From Myxococcota bacterium (lineage in GTDB: Bacteria > Myxococcota_A > Bradymonadia > UBA7976 > UBA1532), in the NCBI GenBank assembly GCA_963169045.1, contig CAUJDF010000029.1:62001-126000 (forward strand): a stretch of 64,000 bases of DNA, given 5' to 3'. Within the stretch, counting starts at the first letter, position 1, and the number at the start of each line of letters is the position of its first letter. This document shows, one piece after another, positions 35,162 through 59,183 of the stretch. The translations under genes and the position numbers were made by a program. Below the pieces are notes generated by a model. It saw nothing but the letters and a program-made list of their open reading frames with translations, did not search any database and had not been told where the DNA came from.

Positions 35162-36925
35162 CTACGCCGCGTCTCGGTCGGAGGCATTCTCGTCGGCCGA
35201 CATGCTCAGCCGGAGGTCGGGCAGTTCGTCCGGCGGCGTGATGGCCGCGAGACGGGTGCGCGCCCCCGCCGCGTGCTCGGCGTGCAGTTCGACGCCGACA
35301 CCGCGGCGCCCGAGTCCCACCGCGACCTCGACGGTGGTGCCCGAGCCGACGAAGGGATCGAGGACGGTGCAGGGGACCGGCGCACCTGCATTGCAGGAGC
35401 AGGAGGGGGACCATCCGGTCGTGGTGAACCACTGCATGTTCTTCCACTTCTTGACGCCCCCCACGTCCACGTACCCGGGCTTGTCTGCGTGAACGACGCG
35501 GCGGTATGGCGCCTCACAGGCGGGGCAGCAGCCACCAGCAGAGGTGGCGGCTGTGATGCACCGCCGCACCAGTTCCGGGGGGAAGGGCGCAGCGTGGCCT
35601 CCCCGGTCGCCTCGTGTCGCGCTGAGTCGCCACACGTCCGTGCCCCTACACAGTCCACCGTGATCCGACATCTGCATCAGGGGCCAGTCGTCGTAGTAGC
35701 AGCCGCCCCCCTTCGGGGTGATTACGAACACCACCTCGGTCGTGTCGCGGATACGGGTCCTCGGGGACGAGGGCCGGGGGTTGGGCTTCTCCCAGGTGAT
35801 CCGGTTGCGCACGGTCCAGCCGTCGTCGATGAGGGCGAGGGCCACCTGGTCGGGCACCAGCGGGAGGCTCCCCTTGGAGGGGGTGTCGGCCAGGTTCAAC
35901 CACACGCTGCCGTCCGGCCGCAGCACCCGGCGAATCTCGCGGAGAACTCCCACGAGGTGCTCGACGTACATGTCGACGGTCGGTTCCTGTCCGAGTTCCC
36001 CCCACCACGCACCGCACCGGCACTGCTTGTCGGAGTTCCACTCGTGGGAGCAGTCGGCGTCGCCTCCCCAAGCGACCGGGTTGGTCCCGAAGTCGCGGAG
36101 CCGGTAGTAGGGCGGGCTGGTCACGCAGGCGTGGACACTGCCATCCGCCAGCTCGCGGAGCCGGTCCAGAACATGCCCGTCAAGAACCTGGTAGCGGTCG
36201 GACACCGGAAGCCGCTGGGTGGGCGGATGCGACGCCGTCTGCGTCGCACGGTTCGCACTGCGCCCGTGCCGGCGGATACGAAGGGCATCACGAAGCGCAT
36301 CGGGATCTCCGGCCGACGCGGCGAGCACTGCGGTGCGATCCTCCCTGTCGAGGACCGCCAGCTTCTTCGCGTCGGCCAGGTTCTTGATCTTGCCCGCCAG
36401 CATCGCGTCCAGAACGTCTGAGGCCTGCGCCTGGATGCGCTTCGCCTGGCGAACGGACTCACCGCTGACGCCGACGCGCTTGCCGGCGAGGGCCGTCGCT
36501 TCGCCCTTCCGACCCTGCCCAACGGCTTGGGTAGGGTCGGCCTTGCCCGCCAACATTCGCTTGCGGGCCAAGTTGGCCTCGAACGGGTGCAGCCGTACCG
36601 CGAGCGCGGCTCTCTGGGCAGTGGTGAGGTGCCGCCGCATCAGGTTGCGCGACAACAGGAGCGCGAGCGCCTCGTCCTCGTTGCCCTCGAAGACGGTGTA
36701 CTTCACCGGGACGCCGAGGGCGCGGCAGGCCGCGTAGACGGACCGTCCGTCGAGGATGCGGCCCTCGTAGAGCAGGATGGGCACGGCCTGACCGTTGGCG
36801 CGGATGTCATCCTTGAGGTTCTTGCACTCCTGCTCGCTCGGAGCCGGGAACAGGCCCGCCAGCGGGTGAGGGACGAGGTCGTCCGTGGTGACGAGGTGCG
36901 TGGTGCTGTCGGGTGCCGTGACCAT
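35162..36925 (-). CDS. ParB-like domain fused to beta-class DNA methyltransferase (copy 1)
   Basis: A 587-residue protein. The ParB/Srx N-domain has VPILLYEGRILDGRSVYAACRA (about 48-70) and SRNLMRRHLTTAQRAALAV (92-110), followed by an HTH-like stretch RVGVSGESVRQAKRIQ. The methyltransferase part has motif IV TSPPYY (269-274) before motif I LDPFVGSGTT near residue 530, the permuted beta order; Cys pairs (CCPACE, CSCN) suggest a metal site. TSPPY fits N4-cytosine or N6-adenine activity. It has a paralogue at 41692-43551. No cognate nuclease is adjacent, so it is an orphan methylase of the element. Confidence 0.88.
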   Translation of the reverse strand: MVTAPDSTTHLVTTDDLVPHPLAGLFPAPSEQECKNLKDDIRANGQAVPILLYEGRILDGRSVYAACRALGVPVKYTVFEGNEDEALALLLSRNLMRRHLTTAQRAALAVRLHPFEANLARKRMLAGKADPTQAVGQGRKGEATALAGKRVGVSGESVRQAKRIQAQASDVLDAMLAGKIKNLADAKKLAVLDREDRTAVLAASAGDPDALRDALRIRRHGRSANRATQTASHPPTQRLPVSDRYQVLDGHVLDRLRELADGSVHACVTSPPYYRLRDFGTNPVAWGGDADCSHEWNSDKQCRCGAWWGELGQEPTVDMYVEHLVGVLREIRRVLRPDGSVWLNLADTPSKGSLPLVPDQVALALIDDGWTVRNRITWEKPNPRPSSPRTRIRDTTEVVFVITPKGGGCYYDDWPLMQMSDHGGLCRGTDVWRLSATRGDRGGHAAPFPPELVRRCITAATSAGGCCPACEAPYRRVVHADKPGYVDVGGVKKWKNMQWFTTTGWSPSCSCNAGAPVPCTVLDPFVGSGTTVEVAVGLGRRGVGVELHAEHAAGARTRLAAITPPDELPDLRLSMSADENASDRDAA

Positions 36926-36996
36926 CTGGCGATGTCGCCCTCAGGCCCGCGAGGTCGAGGAGCGAAGCCGGGGCCGAGGTAGCCACGCTCGGCCCC

Positions 36997-37028
36997 ACTA
37001 CTCTTCGCCCGCTCCACTCTGAGCCCCC
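36997..37028 (-). promoter_or_regulatory. Repeated promoter-like motif, copy c (ParB-methyltransferase 1)
   Basis: Minus strand GGGGGCTCAG, 15 bp, GAGTAGT, 72 bp upstream of the ATG. Confidence 0.65.
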
Positions 37029-37049
37029 CGGCGTTGGACCCCCGGTATC

Positions 37050-37080
37050 GGGGGCTCAGAGCCGAGCGGCGAAGAGTAGT
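37050..37080 (+). promoter_or_regulatory. Repeated promoter-like motif, copy d (99-aa gene)
   Basis: Plus strand GGGGGCTCAG, 14 bp, GAGTAGT, 79 bp upstream of the 99-aa gene start at 37159. Confidence 0.65.
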
Positions 37081-37158
37081 GCTGGTGCGAGCCAGTTCTG
37101 TTCACGCCCCTTGGTCGGGTTCGCCGCACGGGCCGAGGGGATGCAAAGGAGGTTGGTC

Positions 37159-37458
37159 ATGGCGACCAGCAAGAACCTGGCGGACCAGATCCGCCGCAAC
37201 GGCAACCGCTACGTCACCCCGGACGGCCGAGAGCACTCCACACGCCTGGAGGCGGCCTTCCACATGGGGCACAGGGCGGGGGCTTCCTTCGTGCTCCCGT
37301 GCATCGTCCGCGCTCTGGAATGCGCGGGGGCCGACTCGGTGAACATCGCCGACGCGCTCACCGATCAGGGCTACGACGACGACACCACGATCGCGTGGCT
37401 CGTCGAGGCGGGGCACGAGGACATCGCCGATGCCCTCACGGGGGAGGATGGCGAGTAG
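37159..37458 (+). CDS. Protein of unknown function, 99 aa
   Basis: Begins MATSKNLADQIRRNGNRYVT and is acidic at the C-terminus (DIADALTGEDGE). No domain recognised. The start has AAGGAGG seven bases upstream; an in-frame ATG 48 bp earlier lacks one. Its promoter motif pairs with that of ParB-methyltransferase 1, so the two divergent genes should respond together. Confidence 0.72.
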   Translation: MATSKNLADQIRRNGNRYVTPDGREHSTRLEAAFHMGHRAGASFVLPCIVRALECAGADSVNIADALTDQGYDDDTTIAWLVEAGHEDIADALTGEDGE

Positions 37459-37788
37459 GCGGCCGGGGACGGTTCCGCCGTGGCGGGCACAGCTCTCCGT
37501 GGCGGAACCGAACCCACCCCAACCGTGCCCTTTCGCGCAGCGCCGCCGACGCTTTCGTGCAGGTATGGACGCACACCGTCGGCGGCCGGATCGGGGGTTC
37601 TGCGACCGTTGACCGTTTCGGTCACCGGCCTCGACCGACCCCTCGCGTTTTGCGCGTCGGTTCGGGTCGACGCCGACGGCAAGCTCCTCCCGTCGTTCGG
37701 GAGGAGCAGGCACCGTTTCCGGCCGTCGTCGGCGGCGTCGCGAATCCTTCTATACCGCCAGAGAAGTAGGGACGCAGGAGGACCGACA
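37459..37788. other. 330-bp hairpin-rich gap upstream of the reverse transcriptase operon
   Basis: No gene is supported. Four inverted repeats follow each other: CGGTTCCGCC/GGCGGAACCG (37470-37479 and 37501-37510), GCCGCCGACG/CGTCGGCGGC (37542-37551 and 37577-37586), GACCG-TTT-CGGTC (37611-37623), and GCTCCTCCCG-TCGTT-CGGGAGGAGC (37683-37707). None has a T-tract. It may encode a structured RNA, or be a transfer/replication or regulatory site. Confidence 0.6.
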
Positions 37789-38003
37789 TGAGCACGGACA
37801 AGACGACGCGCACGACGTTGACGAAGGGGACCAGCCTGACCGCGGCCGAGGTCGCGGATCGGTTCCGCGTGACCGCGCAGAGCGTGAGGGCGTGGGCACG
37901 AGCGGGGCGCATCCCCGCCTACAGGGTCGGCAGTCAGCTCCGCTTCGACCTCCACGAGGTGGAGGCCGCCCTCCGTCTCCAGGCGGACGGTCGTGACCGC
38001 TAG
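37789..38003 (+). CDS. Small excisionase-type HTH protein
   Basis: A 71-residue protein with SLTAAEVADRFRVTAQSVRA, WARAGRIPAYRVGSQLRFD, the HTH_17/MerR-like DNA-binding module seen in excisionases and small regulators. AGGAGG precedes the ATG. It overlaps the next gene by 11 bp and so is the first gene of the HTH-unknown-reverse transcriptase operon. It could regulate this operon. Confidence 0.8.
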
Positions 38004-39294
38004 GCGCGCCAGCAAGGGCGGATGGGCACGGCGCGAACTGCGACGCCGCGTCGATGCCCTTCACCGACGACGGGAGCGGGTCACGCCCACCGAGTTCAAC
38101 GAGGTCGTCGAACGGCAGGGTGGGATCCACGGTGACCTGCGCACCGCCCTGCCCCTCACCCTGGCCTTCGATGTCTGCGAAGAACTTCGTCGTCGAGGGC
38201 GCGGCAAGGTCGTCACCGCCGAGATGTCCGAGCAGATGCGCATCGAGGCGATGAAGGAGGCCAAGTGGGCCGCCTCGGTGGACGACAGCCCGAAGGCGTG
38301 CGCAGTCTTCGCCGTGGACATGGCGCTGCACTGGTCGACCCGTCCCCTCGGGTTCGACATCCCGCCGCCCGGCGCCTACGTGCGAGGGGAGGGCCGGCCG
38401 TCCTACTTCGACGCGCTCCAGAACTGCTGGGTGTGGCCGGTAGCCAAGCCCAAGGCCGCCGACGAGGACGACGACGACCTCGCCGTGCAGGTGGTGGACG
38501 GGGGCGACGACATCGTCGAGTGCCTCCCCGAGGAATCGGACTCGACAACGCCGGTGCCCCTCGCCCTCAAGGACCTGGCTCGCATCCGGCGTCTCATCCC
38601 CGACGTGGCGTCCGTGCGCGCTTCCGCCAGGTTGCCGGCGACCTGGTCCCCGCAGCACAACCACACCATCTACACCTGCGACGTGATCCGGCTCCCCGTC
38701 GAGGCGCTGGCCCTCGTCAAGCAGGTGGTGATGGACACCACGTCGGCGGTGACGCGGGACTACTCGCTGGCCCGAAAGAACCCGGCCGCCCTGTGCATCG
38801 GCGCCGGGTGGGGCGGGACCGCGCAGGCGTTGTCCGCGCTCTTGCCCCTGCACTGGGTCTACCACCAGCCGTGGCCGTACCACGACGCGGCGCTACCACC
38901 CCTGCCGTGGGAGGTCGTCGTACTCAACGTGCCCTCCAAGCACCACTGGTCGGTGGCCGAGATGATGCGGAACCCGGGGGAGGTGCCGCACCGGACTCGG
39001 CAGCGGGTGCTCCGAGGTCACGACGGCCCCGGTGGACAGCACGTCAAGGTGCTCGTCGAGGCCGCCCTCGACCAGGTGGCCCCGGACACGCTGCTGGTCC
39101 TGCTCGCCGACCAGAAGACGTACCAGCAGGCGGTGGGGCTGCTGCGCACCAGCCCGAAGGTGCTCCCCACGACAGATCTCGGGATGGACACGCAGGCGCG
39201 GCCGGTGTGGATCGGCTACGACAAGCAGCCGTGGGCACCGCACGGCCTCCCGCGGCCCTCGGGGCGACTCCTGACCTTCTGGAGGGGCCGGTGA
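37993..39294 (+). CDS. Protein of unknown function, 433 aa, in the RT operon
   Basis: GTG start overlapping the HTH gene; the stop overlaps the RT start (GTGA). The first 110 residues are basic and helical. An acidic linker (DEDDDDLAVQVVDGGDD) follows. The C-terminal 220 residues show a Rossmann-like rhythm: ALCIGAGWGGTAQAL, PWEVVVLNVPSK, VAPDTLLVLLADQ and GRLLTFWRGR. This could be a diverged methyltransferase fold, but NPPY-type residues are not convincing and no family was recognised. Strict coupling to the RT suggests a joint function. Confidence 0.68.
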   Translation: MTARRASKGGWARRELRRRVDALHRRRERVTPTEFNEVVERQGGIHGDLRTALPLTLAFDVCEELRRRGRGKVVTAEMSEQMRIEAMKEAKWAASVDDSPKACAVFAVDMALHWSTRPLGFDIPPPGAYVRGEGRPSYFDALQNCWVWPVAKPKAADEDDDDLAVQVVDGGDDIVECLPEESDSTTPVPLALKDLARIRRLIPDVASVRASARLPATWSPQHNHTIYTCDVIRLPVEALALVKQVVMDTTSAVTRDYSLARKNPAALCIGAGWGGTAQALSALLPLHWVYHQPWPYHDAALPPLPWEVVVLNVPSKHHWSVAEMMRNPGEVPHRTRQRVLRGHDGPGGQHVKVLVEAALDQVAPDTLLVLLADQKTYQQAVGLLRTSPKVLPTTDLGMDTQARPVWIGYDKQPWAPHGLPRPSGRLLTFWRGR

Positions 39295-41741
39295 AGCACC
39301 CTCGGGCCCGCAAGCAGAAGCCGTTCGACCCCAAGCCGGCCTGGCTCCGGTGGAAGGCGCAGCCGTGGGACACTGCTCTCCTGCCCGAGCAACTCGACTA
39401 CATCGCCCGCGAGATGCTCTCCGGCGACCCCCTGTCCGTGCTCGGGATCACCCACGCCGGAAGTCCAGACCGGGTAGACCAGAACGGCGAGACGAAGGCC
39501 GCCTACAGGGACCTTATCGGCGACGTGAGCGCCTTCCAGCCGCTGGCCGACCTGCTCTCGAACCCCACGGGGAAGATGGCCTGGCTCGCGAGCACGAGGA
39601 CCTCGCTCAAGCAGAAGGCGAAGGTGCGCAACATCGACACCCCCTCGGAGAAGAAGCGCCTCGCACAGCAGGCGCGGATGCTCCTGTCCCTCATCCCCCT
39701 GGTCTACGAGCGCGACGCCCTCGACCCCGGCGTCGTCGGCTTCCGCAACCGCCGCGAGTTCGAGCAGTTCGCCAAGCGCGAGGACGGCATCACCATCCAG
39801 GACGTGTTCGCCGTCAGCTTGATGACCCTCATCCGGGAGCACGGCCCCTTCGTCCTGCTCGTCGACCTGCACGACGCCTACGGCAACCTCCCACACAAGG
39901 CGATCAAGGTCGCCCTCAAGGAGTTGCTCGGCCTCACCGGCCCGCAGGCGAGGGAAGTGGTCGAGCTGGCCCGGGTGCGCACCCGACTCGGGGACGGCCG
40001 CCTCCACAAGCCCAAGGAGTACGGCATCGAGCAGGGGGCACCCATCGCCCCGTTGCTCTTCAACCTGGTGCAGACGGTGATCGCCCGGCGCCTGCGCAAG
40101 CAGGGGTACGAGTCCGGCTGCTTCGGCGACGACATCGGGATCGCCGCCAACACCGTGGCCGAGGCCAAGACGGCGTTCACCGTGTACCGGGGGATCCTCG
40201 ACGACCTCGGCTTCGACGTGGAGAAGGCCCTCCGCGACCTGGACGACAAGGCCGAGAAGGCGTCCCGCATCTACGACGCCCGGTGCGAGCCGGTGCCGCT
40301 CATCAAGACGTACATGGTGACCACCCGCGAGATCGGCCTCACGACCGACAAGGCGTGCGAGCTGCTCTCCCGCTTGCCCCCGGATGCGAGCCTCAACGAG
40401 GCCCGCAGACGGAACAAGTGGAAGGCGGTCACCAAGGCGTACCTCCGCAGGCTCCTCCGGGATTTCCGCGAAGGTCCAACTGCCTCGGCGCGGCTTCGAG
40501 CCGAGGGCGTGATGGTGATGGGGGATGTGCTTGCGCAACCCCCGAACCTGAACGTGCCTGCACGTGCGCAAGCACGTCCTGACGATCCTGATCCCCCGGC
40601 GTCAGCCGAGGGTGATGGTGACCCAGAAGGAGTGCCCTCGAAGAAGGCCCCCTGTTCCCCAGGGGAGTCCTCCTACAGGGGTACTCGATCCACCGCGATG
40701 CCCCTGGGCAATGGTGATTCCTCCTGCTTGCAGGCGGAAGAGGTAGAGGGTTGCGACTCTCTCTCTCCCTACCCGGAATCTGCTTCGGCAGAGTCCCCGG
40801 AGTTGGAGCGCCAGCTCGGCGCGGGCGAGACGGCCAACGACCGGCCTTCGGCTGGTCGGCCACACGACGGCAGGGTGACCACTCCACGGGGTGGCCCCGA
40901 CGCTGGTTGTCCCACCAGCGGAGACGAGGGGGAGGCCGCAGGGCATCAGGCCTCCCCCTCGCCGTCCGTCTCCATCATCCCCTTGAAGGTCGAGCACCTT
41001 CTGAACCTTACCGAGGGTCGCCGACTGCGAGCCGGCGACAACTACCGGCCGGGCGCCCACTCGAAGAAGGGCACGGCTCGGCAGCGGGTCTTCGTCGACC
41101 TTCGTGAAGCCGGACCTCTTCCGCCCGCTTGGCGGATGCCGTGGGCCGTCAAGCAGCTCGTCCGCGCAACCAGCGCGGCGGGGCGATCCGAGTTCCTGGT
41201 CCACCCGGCGGGGCCGTGGCACAGCGCGTTCACCGACCTCGACGGCGACGGTTACCGCGTGTCCACCCGCGAGAGCGCCGACGGCATCGTCGTGACCGTC
41301 TGGCCCCGGGCCACCGGCGAGCGCGGGCACAAGGTCGCGGAGCCGCCGCCAGCCGCCGACCTCGTCGTCACCCTTCACCGAACCCCCGACGACGTTCGCT
41401 GCTGGCTGGTCGAGCTGGTGTCCCGCGACGCCGTGGACCGCGAGGTCGTCACGGTGCGCTCGCGCAACCCCCTGATCGGGAAGATCGAGGTCGTCGCACA
41501 TGTCGTCGAGGATCGGCAGCTGGCCACGCTGGCGGTCCGGGACACCGGAGGTATCCGCCGCCTTCTACAGCACGAGGTGCGCGCCCGGCAGGTGGACCTG
41601 TGGAAGGCGCTCCAGGTGTTGAAGGCGTGGGAGCCGTCGCAGGTGTCGCCGAACTGGATGCTTCTCAGCAGGCGGCGTTCTCGCCCACGTCCTACTCGAT
41701 CCCGATGCGCTTCTTCGCAAGATCCAGGTAGCCGGCGTTGA
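39291..41741 (+). CDS. Divergent reverse transcriptase with FGDD active site and C-terminal extension
   Basis: An 816-residue protein. RT motifs: LIPLVYERDALDPGVVGFRN (135-152, like the SYGFR region of bacterial RTs), motif A LVDLHDAYGNLP (190-201), motif B GIEQGAPIAPLLF (245-257), motif C CFGDD (277-281) and motif D LDDLGFDVEKAL. The catalytic box is FGDD, not YADD. Residues about 400-530 are a low-complexity linker. The last 280 residues (from VEHLLNLTEGRRLRAGDNYR) are unassigned. GTG start with GGAGG six bases upstream. No HNH or intron RNA domain was seen, so it is not an obvious group II intron. The 3' end overlaps the convergent ParB-methyltransferase by 50 bp. Confidence 0.82.
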   Translation: MKHPRARKQKPFDPKPAWLRWKAQPWDTALLPEQLDYIAREMLSGDPLSVLGITHAGSPDRVDQNGETKAAYRDLIGDVSAFQPLADLLSNPTGKMAWLASTRTSLKQKAKVRNIDTPSEKKRLAQQARMLLSLIPLVYERDALDPGVVGFRNRREFEQFAKREDGITIQDVFAVSLMTLIREHGPFVLLVDLHDAYGNLPHKAIKVALKELLGLTGPQAREVVELARVRTRLGDGRLHKPKEYGIEQGAPIAPLLFNLVQTVIARRLRKQGYESGCFGDDIGIAANTVAEAKTAFTVYRGILDDLGFDVEKALRDLDDKAEKASRIYDARCEPVPLIKTYMVTTREIGLTTDKACELLSRLPPDASLNEARRRNKWKAVTKAYLRRLLRDFREGPTASARLRAEGVMVMGDVLAQPPNLNVPARAQARPDDPDPPASAEGDGDPEGVPSKKAPCSPGESSYRGTRSTAMPLGNGDSSCLQAEEVEGCDSLSPYPESASAESPELERQLGAGETANDRPSAGRPHDGRVTTPRGGPDAGCPTSGDEGEAAGHQASPSPSVSIIPLKVEHLLNLTEGRRLRAGDNYRPGAHSKKGTARQRVFVDLREAGPLPPAWRMPWAVKQLVRATSAAGRSEFLVHPAGPWHSAFTDLDGDGYRVSTRESADGIVVTVWPRATGERGHKVAEPPPAADLVVTLHRTPDDVRCWLVELVSRDAVDREVVTVRSRNPLIGKIEVVAHVVEDRQLATLAVRDTGGIRRLLQHEVRARQVDLWKALQVLKAWEPSQVSPNWMLLSRRRSRPRPTRSRCASSQDPGSRR

Positions 41742-43551
41742 GATCGATGCCGATGAAGCTCCGCCCGTGTTTCCGGGCGACCATGCCGGTCGTCGCCGCC
41801 CCGGAGAACGGGTCCAGCACCGTGCAGGGAACGACCTCGGCGGTGTCGCAGTCGCAGGGGGGCTGCCAGCCGGTCGTCTCGACCTCGGACACCCCGAAGC
41901 CCTTGCCGGCCGTCCCGGCGGCTCCCACGCCTACCTGCCGGCCGGGGCGTCCGGTGCGGCTGGCGTCGCCGTAGGCTGCCGAGTGCGCGGACCGACCGCT
42001 TGGCCCCACCGGATCGCCTCGCCGCACTTGGCGGGTCCACGGCGTTCCACAGGCGGCACAGGCCCCGGTCGCCGACGTGCCGGCCAGGATCATCGGCTCG
42101 ACGAGGGCCTCGGGCATGGCCGCGATGTGCCCATCCCCGGACTGCGTGGGCATGGTCCAGACGCTTCGCCGGTTGCGCCCCCGTTCATTGGGCCGGGGGT
42201 TGATGCCGTGGGGCCGGGTGTGGCCGTCACCTCGTCCACCCACGCCGCGCTGCCGTCCACGGCGGTCGGTCTTCGGGTGCCCGTCCACGAAGGGTTCCAG
42301 CACCGCCGCGCCGTCGTAGTAGTACGTGCCGTCGCCGTCCGGGTGAGCGAGCTGGAAGACGAACTCGTGCGCCCTCGTGGGGCGGTCGGTGACCGGCTCG
42401 GGCATCGGGTTGGTCTTTGCGAACACCACGTCCTGCCGCACCCACCAGCCCGCGCTCTGGAGCGCGAGGGCGACCCGGTGGGGCACGAGGGCCAGGTCCT
42501 TCGGCTTCAAGGCACCGTGCGCGTTCGACGGGACCACGTAGTTGTCGCCGAGCACCAGCCAGGCGGTGCCGTCGTGGCGGAGGACCCTTCGGATCGCGTC
42601 GAAGACGGCGACCAGGTGCTCGACGTACATCTGCACGGTGGGTTCGCCGCCGAGGTGCCCGGACCAACCGTCGCTCCAGGCCACCGGGGGGCCGCCGTAG
42701 TCGCGGAGCGAACCCCAGTAGGGCGGACTGGTGATCACTGAGTGCGCGGTGCCCTCGTCGAGCTGGCGCAGGGCGTCGAGGACGTGCTGGCCGTAGAGCA
42801 GGGTGACCCCGGGTGCTCGGACAACGGTTGGCGTCGGGGCCTCGTCGACCCGGGCGGCGTGCTCTTCCGATCGGATGGCCCTGACCGCGTCGTACACCTT
42901 GCCGCCGTGCGCCCGCAGGTGCTCGGTGACAGCGGGTCGTTGCTGCCGCGGGATGTGGGCCAGACGCTGCGCCTCGGGCAGCGAGCGGACCAGCCCGTCG
43001 GACATGGCGTCCACCACGTCGGGGGCGTGCTCGGCGATGCGGGCGGCCTGGCGGACCGTCTCCTTGCTGATCCCGACCCGACGGCCTGCCAGTTCGGTCG
43101 CCTCGCCGTTAGCGGGACCCTCCGCAGAATCTTGCGTAGGGTCAGCGACGCCGGCCTCCATCCGCCGACGGGCGCGTTCTGCTTCCACGGGCAAGAGGCG
43201 GAGCGCGAGGGCCGCCCGCTGCGGGGTTGTCAGGTGCCGGCGCGCAACGTTGAGCGAGACGACGTAGTTCAGTGCGTCGTCCTCGGTGCCGCCGAACTCC
43301 TCGAACCGGGGTTCGACGCCGGCGGCCCGGCAAGCACGCAGGCGGTTGCGGCCGTCGAGCACCTGGCCCTCGAAGAGCACGATCGGTACACGGAGGCCGT
43401 GCTCGCGGATGTCGTCGACCAGGGCATCGAACTCGGGGCCGTGGATCAGGGGTAACAGGTCGGCGAACCCGTGGTGTGGCCAAGCCCGGGTAGCAACTAC
43501 TTCCGGTTTACCCGTTCCCGTCACGCCCTGGCCTTCTCCACCAGCATTCAC
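41692..43551 (-). CDS. ParB-like domain fused to beta-class DNA methyltransferase (copy 2)
   Basis: A 619-residue paralogue of the protein at 35162-36925. It shares VPIVLFEGQVLDGRNRLRACRA, SLNVARRHLTTPQRAALALRL and RVGISKETVRQAARIAE. The methyltransferase part has motif IV TSPPYW and motif I LDPFSGAATTGMVA (AAT instead of GT) near the C-terminus, plus CAACG and CDCD cysteines. GTG 43551 is preferred because GGAGGGG lies six bases upstream; GTG 43566 is possible. The divergence between copies is large, so they probably have different target sequences or ages. Confidence 0.87.
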   Translation of the reverse strand: MNAGGEGQGVTGTGKPEVVATRAWPHHGFADLLPLIHGPEFDALVDDIREHGLRVPIVLFEGQVLDGRNRLRACRAAGVEPRFEEFGGTEDDALNYVVSLNVARRHLTTPQRAALALRLLPVEAERARRRMEAGVADPTQDSAEGPANGEATELAGRRVGISKETVRQAARIAEHAPDVVDAMSDGLVRSLPEAQRLAHIPRQQRPAVTEHLRAHGGKVYDAVRAIRSEEHAARVDEAPTPTVVRAPGVTLLYGQHVLDALRQLDEGTAHSVITSPPYWGSLRDYGGPPVAWSDGWSGHLGGEPTVQMYVEHLVAVFDAIRRVLRHDGTAWLVLGDNYVVPSNAHGALKPKDLALVPHRVALALQSAGWWVRQDVVFAKTNPMPEPVTDRPTRAHEFVFQLAHPDGDGTYYYDGAAVLEPFVDGHPKTDRRGRQRGVGGRGDGHTRPHGINPRPNERGRNRRSVWTMPTQSGDGHIAAMPEALVEPMILAGTSATGACAACGTPWTRQVRRGDPVGPSGRSAHSAAYGDASRTGRPGRQVGVGAAGTAGKGFGVSEVETTGWQPPCDCDTAEVVPCTVLDPFSGAATTGMVARKHGRSFIGIDLNAGYLDLAKKRIGIE

Positions 43552-43648
43552 GCTCCACCCCTCCACCCGTAGCCGATTCCCGAACCGGACTCCAGGTCGA
43601 GCACCTCGGCCATCGAGTCGAACGCTGCCGTTGACGCCCCGCCCACGT

Positions 43649-58094: not shown

Positions 58095-59183
58095 CTAAAC
58101 ATTGAACCGGAAGTGCAGCACGTCGCCGTCCTGGACGACGTACTCCTTGCCTTCGACGCGCAGCTTGCCGGCGGCCTTCAAGCCGGCCTCGCCGCCGGCG
58201 GCCTCGAGGTCGGGGATGGTGTAGACCTCGGCGCGGATGAAGCCGCGCTCGAAGTCGGAGTGGATGATGCCGGCGCACTGGGGGGCCTTGGCGCCCTTGG
58301 GGAACGTCCAGGCGCGGATCTCCTTCTCGCCGGCCGTGAAGTAGGTCTGCATGCCGAGCAGGCGGTAGGCCTCGCGGGCGAGGGCGTTGAGGCCCGGCTC
58401 CGTCAGCCCGAGGGCCGAGAGGAAATCGGCGCGGTCCTCGGGCGGCAGCTCCGCCACCTCGGACTCGATCTTGCCCGACAGGACCACCATGCCGGCGCCC
58501 TCGGCCTTCGCGCGCTCGGCGACCCGGGCCGTCCAGGCGTTGCCGGTGGCCGCGTCGCTCTCCGGCACGTTGCAGACGTAGAGCACGGGCTTGGCGGTGA
58601 TGAGGCCCGCCTCGCGCAGGATCTTCTCCTGGTGGACGTCCCACTGGCCGGCGCGCGCCGGCTTGCCCTGCTCGATGAGCGTCAACGCCTTCTGGAGCAC
58701 CTCGACCTTGGCCTGCGACTCCTTGTCGCCGCCGCGGGCCTTCTTGCCGAGCCGGTCGACCTGGCGGCTCAGCGAGTCGAGATCGGCGAGGCCGAGCTCG
58801 ATGTCGATGGTCTCGATGTCGCGGAGGGGATCGACGCCGCCGTCGACGTGCACGACGTCCGGGTCGTCGAAGCAGCGCACCACGTGCAGGATGGCGTCGA
58901 CGCTGCGGATGTGGCCGAGGAACTGGTTGCCGAGGCCCTCGCCCTTGCTCGCGCCGCGCACGAGGCCGGCGATGTCGACGACCTCGACGACGGCGGGGAT
59001 GACCCGCTGCGTGGCGATCACCTTCTGGATGCGCTGGAGGCGCGGGTCGGGGACGGTGACCACCCCCACGTTGGGCTCGATCGTGCAGAACGGATAGTTC
59101 GCGCTCTCGGCGCCCGCGGCCGTGAGGGCGTTGAAGATGGTCGACTTGCCGACGTTGGGCAGCCCGACGATGCCTGCCTGCAT
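58095..59183 (-). CDS. ychF: Redox-regulated ATPase/GTPase YchF (OLA1 family)
   Basis: A 362-residue TRAFAC-class P-loop protein. G1 GLPNVGKSTIFNAL; a G3 region VVDIAGLVRGASKGEGLGNQ with the hydrophobic residue typical of HAS-type NTPases; SGKIESEVAELPPEDR; and the C-terminal TGS domain (RAWTFPKGAKAPQCAGIIHS, VVQDGDVLHFRFNV). YchF binds ribosomes, prefers ATP and acts in stress control. It is universal housekeeping and marks the return to backbone. Confidence 0.97.
   Translation of the reverse strand: MQAGIVGLPNVGKSTIFNALTAAGAESANYPFCTIEPNVGVVTVPDPRLQRIQKVIATQRVIPAVVEVVDIAGLVRGASKGEGLGNQFLGHIRSVDAILHVVRCFDDPDVVHVDGGVDPLRDIETIDIELGLADLDSLSRQVDRLGKKARGGDKESQAKVEVLQKALTLIEQGKPARAGQWDVHQEKILREAGLITAKPVLYVCNVPESDAATGNAWTARVAERAKAEGAGMVVLSGKIESEVAELPPEDRADFLSALGLTEPGLNALAREAYRLLGMQTYFTAGEKEIRAWTFPKGAKAPQCAGIIHSDFERGFIRAEVYTIPDLEAAGGEAGLKAAGKLRVEGKEYVVQDGDVLHFRFNV

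Follow-up and report, generated by a model that had tools for sequence, protein, structure and literature searches.

A sliding fold scan of a reverse transcriptase (RT) operon and its three known relatives placed the strongest folded region common to all four within the RT gene itself, in a linker between the RT/thumb part and the C-terminal domain. Selection on the RNA structure of this linker, beyond protein and codon constraint, is well supported in all four loci. The operon lies in a 64,000-nucleotide stretch of DNA (the window) from a 9.0-Mb Myxococcota genome (G000). The first-pass annotation had pointed to the hairpin-rich gap directly upstream of the operon as a candidate template or cofactor RNA of the RT. 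A structured RNA for the RT does look right, but the conserved one is found inside the RT gene, not in the gap.

The operon runs on the plus strand from an HTH protein gene through p433 to the RT, with overlaps of a few bases at both junctions (Table 1). The RT is made up of an N-terminal part, the RT domain, the linker and the C-terminal domain, and its RT motif reads FGDD in the window and YLDD in the relatives. AlphaFold models built from 4 sequences had low confidence (mean pLDDT 55 and 48). By the order of its structural elements in the model, the C-terminal domain is possibly RNase H-like. No Pfam match was obtained for p433; its low-confidence predicted fold resembles NSUN4/Trm-type methyltransferases, and p433 is tentatively assigned as methyltransferase-like. 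The gene preceding the gap, p106, is unrelated to the operon and has no counterpart in the three related loci.

Table 1. Positions of the features discussed. Coordinates are those of the window unless another locus is named.
Feature	Locus	Coordinates	Strand	Remarks
Island	window	29014-57863		ychF-type gene follows at 58098
ParB-like/DNA methylase paralogue	window	35165-36925	-	flanks RT operon
Near-perfect inverted repeat, 86 nt	window	36996-37081		between divergent ParB-like/N6-N4 methyltransferase gene (-) and p106 (+)
p106	window	37138-37458	+	no family match
Hairpin-rich gap	window	37459-37788	+	between p106 and HTH gene
Hairpin 1	window	37465-37515	+	directly 3' of p106 stop codon; inner perfect 10-bp stem 37470-37510
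Block common to window and L016	window	37508-37538	+	AACCC[AG]CCCCAAC[CG]GTG[CA]CC[CG]TT..GCGC
Long-range stem in gap fold	window	37536-37551 with 37727-37742		
Hairpin 2	window	37542-37586	+	perfect 10-bp stem
Hairpin 3	window	37606-37628	+	includes the previously described stem 37611-37623
Fifth hairpin	window	37631-37671	+	imperfect
Hairpin 4	window	37683-37707	+	perfect 10-bp stem, 5-nt loop
Promoter-like/leader block common to window and L016	window	37749-37787	+	CTATA..CC..AGAGTAGG.GACGCA.GGAGGAC; adjoins HTH start
HTH_17/excisionase-like DNA-binding protein	window	37788-38003	+	operon gene 1; Pfam HTH_17, E = 8.4e-12
p433, methyltransferase-like Rossmann protein (tentative)	window	37993-39294	+	occurs only together with this RT
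RT, 816 aa	window	39291-41741	+	Pfam RVT_1, E = 3.5e-8; alignment and structure model
Linker, in-frame hairpin array	window	40476-41021	+	same position structured in all four loci
Linker hairpin, 11-bp stem	window	40526-40575	+	
Terminal linker hairpin, 13-bp stem	window	40925-40961	+	ends exactly at start of conserved C-terminal domain
ParB-like/DNA methylase paralogue	window	41695-43566	-	flanks RT operon
Linker, in-frame hairpin array	L014	8873-10441	-	
Linker, in-frame hairpin array	L015	1902-2398	-	
Linker, in-frame hairpin array	L016	10640-11180		
tRNA gene	L016	1001-1073		upstream of RT operon
Distant integrase match	L016	1663-2160		upstream of RT operon

The three relatives, L014 (genome G009), L015 (G061) and L016 (G002), are all from Myxococcota. 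Their RT domains are about 30% identical and the RTs are mutually equidistant. No further family member was detected in scans of genome contigs, viral contigs, plasmids and phages (tblastn). The RT profile and, independently, the p433 profile returned the same 4 of 379 Myxococcota genomes as their only strong matches, and the two proteins therefore appear to form an obligate pair. The third gene of the operon varies: an HTH gene is present in the window and L016, a diverged HTH gene in L015, and a gene for an RHH-like protein, assigned by eye, in L014.

The island around the operon looks like a mobile, defence-rich element, because it carries a tyrosine integrase, a serine resolvase, several DNA methyltransferases, TA-like genes and ArdC. 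An AbiEi-like regulator, an MqsA-like antitoxin and a PLD-like protein are encoded there too. Parts of the two flanking ParB-like/DNA methylase paralogues are about 66-69% identical in DNA. The 86-nt inverted repeat is the strongest palindrome of the region (-75 kcal/mol on the plus strand and -83 on the minus strand) and is single copy in the genome. In L016, the tRNA gene and the distant integrase match suggest integration at a tRNA site. In L015, a type I restriction HsdR-like gene, recognized by eye from the sequence, lies directly downstream of the RT, again a defence context.

We chose the linker boundaries by visual inspection of the protein alignment and the initial sliding scan; the choice preceded the shuffle tests but used the same sequences, and the z-scores are therefore somewhat flattered. 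With local folding on the plus strand they were, for dinucleotide and synonymous-codon shuffles respectively, -5.1 and -3.4 for the window (-3.4 to -4.1 across runs of the latter), -6.5 and -7.4 for L014, -6.6 and -5.3 for L015, and -5.2 and -5.2 for L016. The flanking RT and C-terminal domains gave +0.6 to -2.3 on the same strand. None of 100 synonymous shuffles reached the observed value for the window, L015 or L016. When the L014 linker was divided into thirds, 3, 0 and 0 of 100 shuffles did so, and its last third, beside the C-terminal domain, was the most structured (z = -6.0). Structure is present but weaker on the minus strand; almost all tests favoured the plus strand, with the clearest difference in L014 and L016. 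The linkers of the four loci have no common sequence motif, so no consensus RNA fold could be drawn. A repeat check found the linker hairpins to be single copy in G000 and G009.

Judged by its reading frame, the linker is translated. The RT frame has no stop codon within it at any locus, and the other frames have 7 and 5 (window), 17 and 25 (L014), 1 and 16 (L015), and 2 and 10 (L016). GC3 drops within the linker at every locus and rises again downstream of it. Each of the four loci has a strong hairpin whose end falls 0 to about 7 nt short of the C-terminal domain; these boundary hairpins come from the few perfect hairpins of each RT gene (stem of at least 8, loop up to 20), and the domain boundary in L015 was set from the protein alignment.

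The linker hairpins might instead be speed bumps in the mRNA that slow the ribosome between domains, or a hypervariable sequence produced by slippage or self-primed copying, with no role in RT binding. The linkers are of low complexity, low GC3 and variable length (about 500 to 1,570 nt), and the L014 linker contains a diverged 56-nt internal repeat, all of which fit this explanation. It accounts less well for the hairpin fixed at the C-terminal boundary in every locus and for the advantage of the sense strand. The degree of structure also argues against it: at certain other RT loci in the phylum, which we take to be group II intron RNA, the same fold statistic runs from -4 to -7, and the linkers equal them. 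We consider this explanation unlikely, but a serious one.

In the gap itself, all four inverted repeats described by the first-pass annotation are present, three of them with perfect 10-bp stems. An imperfect fifth had been overlooked, which brings the gap to three perfect 10-bp stems and two imperfect ones. The hairpins are genuine, and for this genome they clearly exceed random expectation. The 64 kb contain 19 perfect stems of 10 bp or longer (loops of 3-40 nt), three of them inside the 330-bp gap; when the gap was dinucleotide-shuffled 2,000 times, no shuffle had three such hairpins. The fold of the whole gap gave z = -5.35 to -6.0 on the plus strand and -3.35 to -4.1 on the minus strand, compared to means of -0.31 (sd 1.18) in 31 control windows of 330 nt and -0.34 (sd 1.2) in 319 of 200 nt. 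Hairpin 1 forms 21 pairs in all, three of them G-U, with -37.1 kcal/mol on the plus strand vs. -29.1 on the minus strand. Its 14-bp main stem contains two G-U pairs on the plus strand, and this partial reliance on G-U pairing favours an RNA reading. Within the genome the gap occurs once. It has a 30-nt match in other genomes, which we read as a fortuitous resemblance to coding sequence and discarded.

The gap had also been described as noncoding and as free of a terminator-like T-tract. No such T-tract was found, and we found no strong coding signal: GC3 periodicity fades near 37440 and returns in the HTH gene. However, the p106 frame by chance meets no stop codon across the gap (0 vs. 1 in each other plus-strand frame), so that coding there is unlikely rather than formally excluded. 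No match to the sigma-70 consensus or to a promoter or terminator consensus was found in the gap.

Conservation of the gap sequence is limited to one pair of loci. The global similarity of the window and L016 gaps was 417, compared to 279 +/- 24 in shuffles (maximum of 300, 354). The two share a block near hairpin 1 and a promoter-like block at the HTH start, and the CCCCAAC of the former lies 271 nt from the HTH ATG in the window and 272 nt in L016. Other pairs of gaps, including those with L014 and L015, had no similarity above chance. The L014 gap also has a CCCCAAC motif, which we discounted because the similarity of the window and L014 gaps is not beyond chance. Since the RTs are equidistant while only the window and L016 share the HTH protein (57% identity), conservation of the gap appears to track the HTH gene and not the RT.

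The stems of the gap are mostly not kept in homologous loci. In a comparison of four members with one alignable gap (L016), too few for proper covariation, 35 of 68 window pairs (51%) can form in L016, vs. 20 to 35 (29-51%) with slid partners. A second pair count gave higher numbers, but it took its structure from one of the two sequences compared, which makes its slid control not comparable. A two-sequence RNAalifold consensus of the window and L016 was set aside, because the window pairs do not exceed the slid controls in L016. The long-range stem of the window gap has no equivalent found in L016. The homologous gaps are weakly folded (z = -1.8 to -3.1 in L014, about -1 in L015, and -0.3 to -2.2 in L016).

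These results bear on the idea that the gap encodes a discrete noncoding RNA which serves the RT as template or cofactor. DRT2, DRT9 and DRT10 are RTs that need a neighbouring noncoding RNA (PMC12039810, PMC12483538, PMC12632851), and those of DRT9 and DRT10 are positioned upstream, as the gap is here (PMC12483538, PMC12632851). The strong sense-strand fold, the G-U pairs of hairpin 1, the blocks conserved in register with L016, and the position upstream of an accessory gene and RT, as in DRT10 (PMC12632851), all speak for this idea. However, the stems in L016 are not kept beyond the slid controls, z is weak in all three homologous gaps, similarity follows the HTH gene rather than the RT, and the gap has no Rfam match. 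We judge such an RNA improbable as the principal explanation of the gap. That the gap hairpins are DNA-level sites, either operators or cruciform sites of the HTH protein or sites for the recombinases of the element, is more doubtful again: the adjoining excisionase-like HTH gene, the integrase and resolvase in the same island, and the repeated words ACCGTTG/ACCGTTTC with the inverted repeats favour it, but the gap folds better on the sense than on the minus strand, the integrase and resolvase genes are 4-7 kb distant, and no repeated operator common to the loci was identified. An oriT, also raised earlier for the gap, is without support, with no relaxase family match among the window proteins scanned.

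The explanation that we prefer, at close to an even chance but below it, is that the gap serves a rare RT operon as control region and 5' leader and that the RNA of the RT is more likely the linker array. Hairpin 1 would act as a terminator without a T-tract, or as a barrier, limiting read-through from p106. The later hairpins, the blocks common to the window and L016, and the promoter-like block would govern expression in response to the HTH protein. In this genome the gap would probably be transcribed as a structured leader, with an appreciable probability of a discrete RNA product as well. Counting against a control region, the gap is unusually structured on the sense strand, beyond plain regulatory needs, and no promoter or terminator consensus was matched. 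The linker hairpin array would be the RNA partner of the RT, which would bind it in cis. Its terminal hairpin beside the C-terminal domain would mark a boundary, and the array would be used as a scaffold or template; it may be copied by the RT, and it may serve in defence.

The operon resembles several known RT systems in part. Like the DRT10 and DRT9 (UG17 and UG28) defence RTs, it has a structured noncoding region upstream of its first gene and a location in a defence-rich island, and, like DRT10, an accessory gene before the RT. Unlike them, it has no SLATT gene, its accessory proteins being HTH and methyltransferase-like; the upstream region is strongly structured in the window only, with no conserved stem-loops, and the conserved structured RNA is within the RT gene. 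PADLOC gave as best match for the RT a CRISPR-associated RT (7e-9), Drt9 at 3.1e-6 over the palm only, and no full-length match to a UG class. Retrons also have an RT with structured RNA near the gene; in contrast to them, NAxxH is absent from all four RTs, and a VTG string occurs in L014 only, after the palm and outside the expected place. The long-range stem of the window gap is a candidate for the a1/a2 repeats of an upstream msr-msd, but a conserved one was not found among the relatives. By fold and by sequence, the solved structures nearest to this RT are G2L4 and GsI-IIC, from the group II intron and group II-like (G2L) RTs, and, as in group II introns, structured RNA and RT reading frame are physically joined. 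However, a maturase or HNH domain is lacking, and the RNA is within the reading frame rather than the frame within the RNA. No Rfam match to group II intron RNA (domains V/VI) was obtained in the window at 30-46 kb or in L014-L016. A diversity-generating retroelement does not fit: window self-comparison revealed no template/variable repeat pair differing at adenines around the RT, and the gap and the linker each occur once in the genome. More speculatively, and rather doubtful at present, the operon may represent a new class of RT system, with its cognate RNA lying within the frame that encodes the RT, a translated and rapidly evolving array as cis template or scaffold, and an obligate methyltransferase-like partner.

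A hairpin-rich gap adjoining an RT is by itself no evidence of a cofactor RNA. The linker RNA, common to all four known loci, is a more interesting lead than the gap hairpins. In known bacterial RT systems the noncoding RNAs are encoded beside the RT gene, and the novelty here lies in where the RNA sits. If this is true, a folded RNA would be written into the RT coding sequence, with the amino-acid meaning kept and the hairpins selected on top, and RT and RNA would be coupled by a different arrangement.
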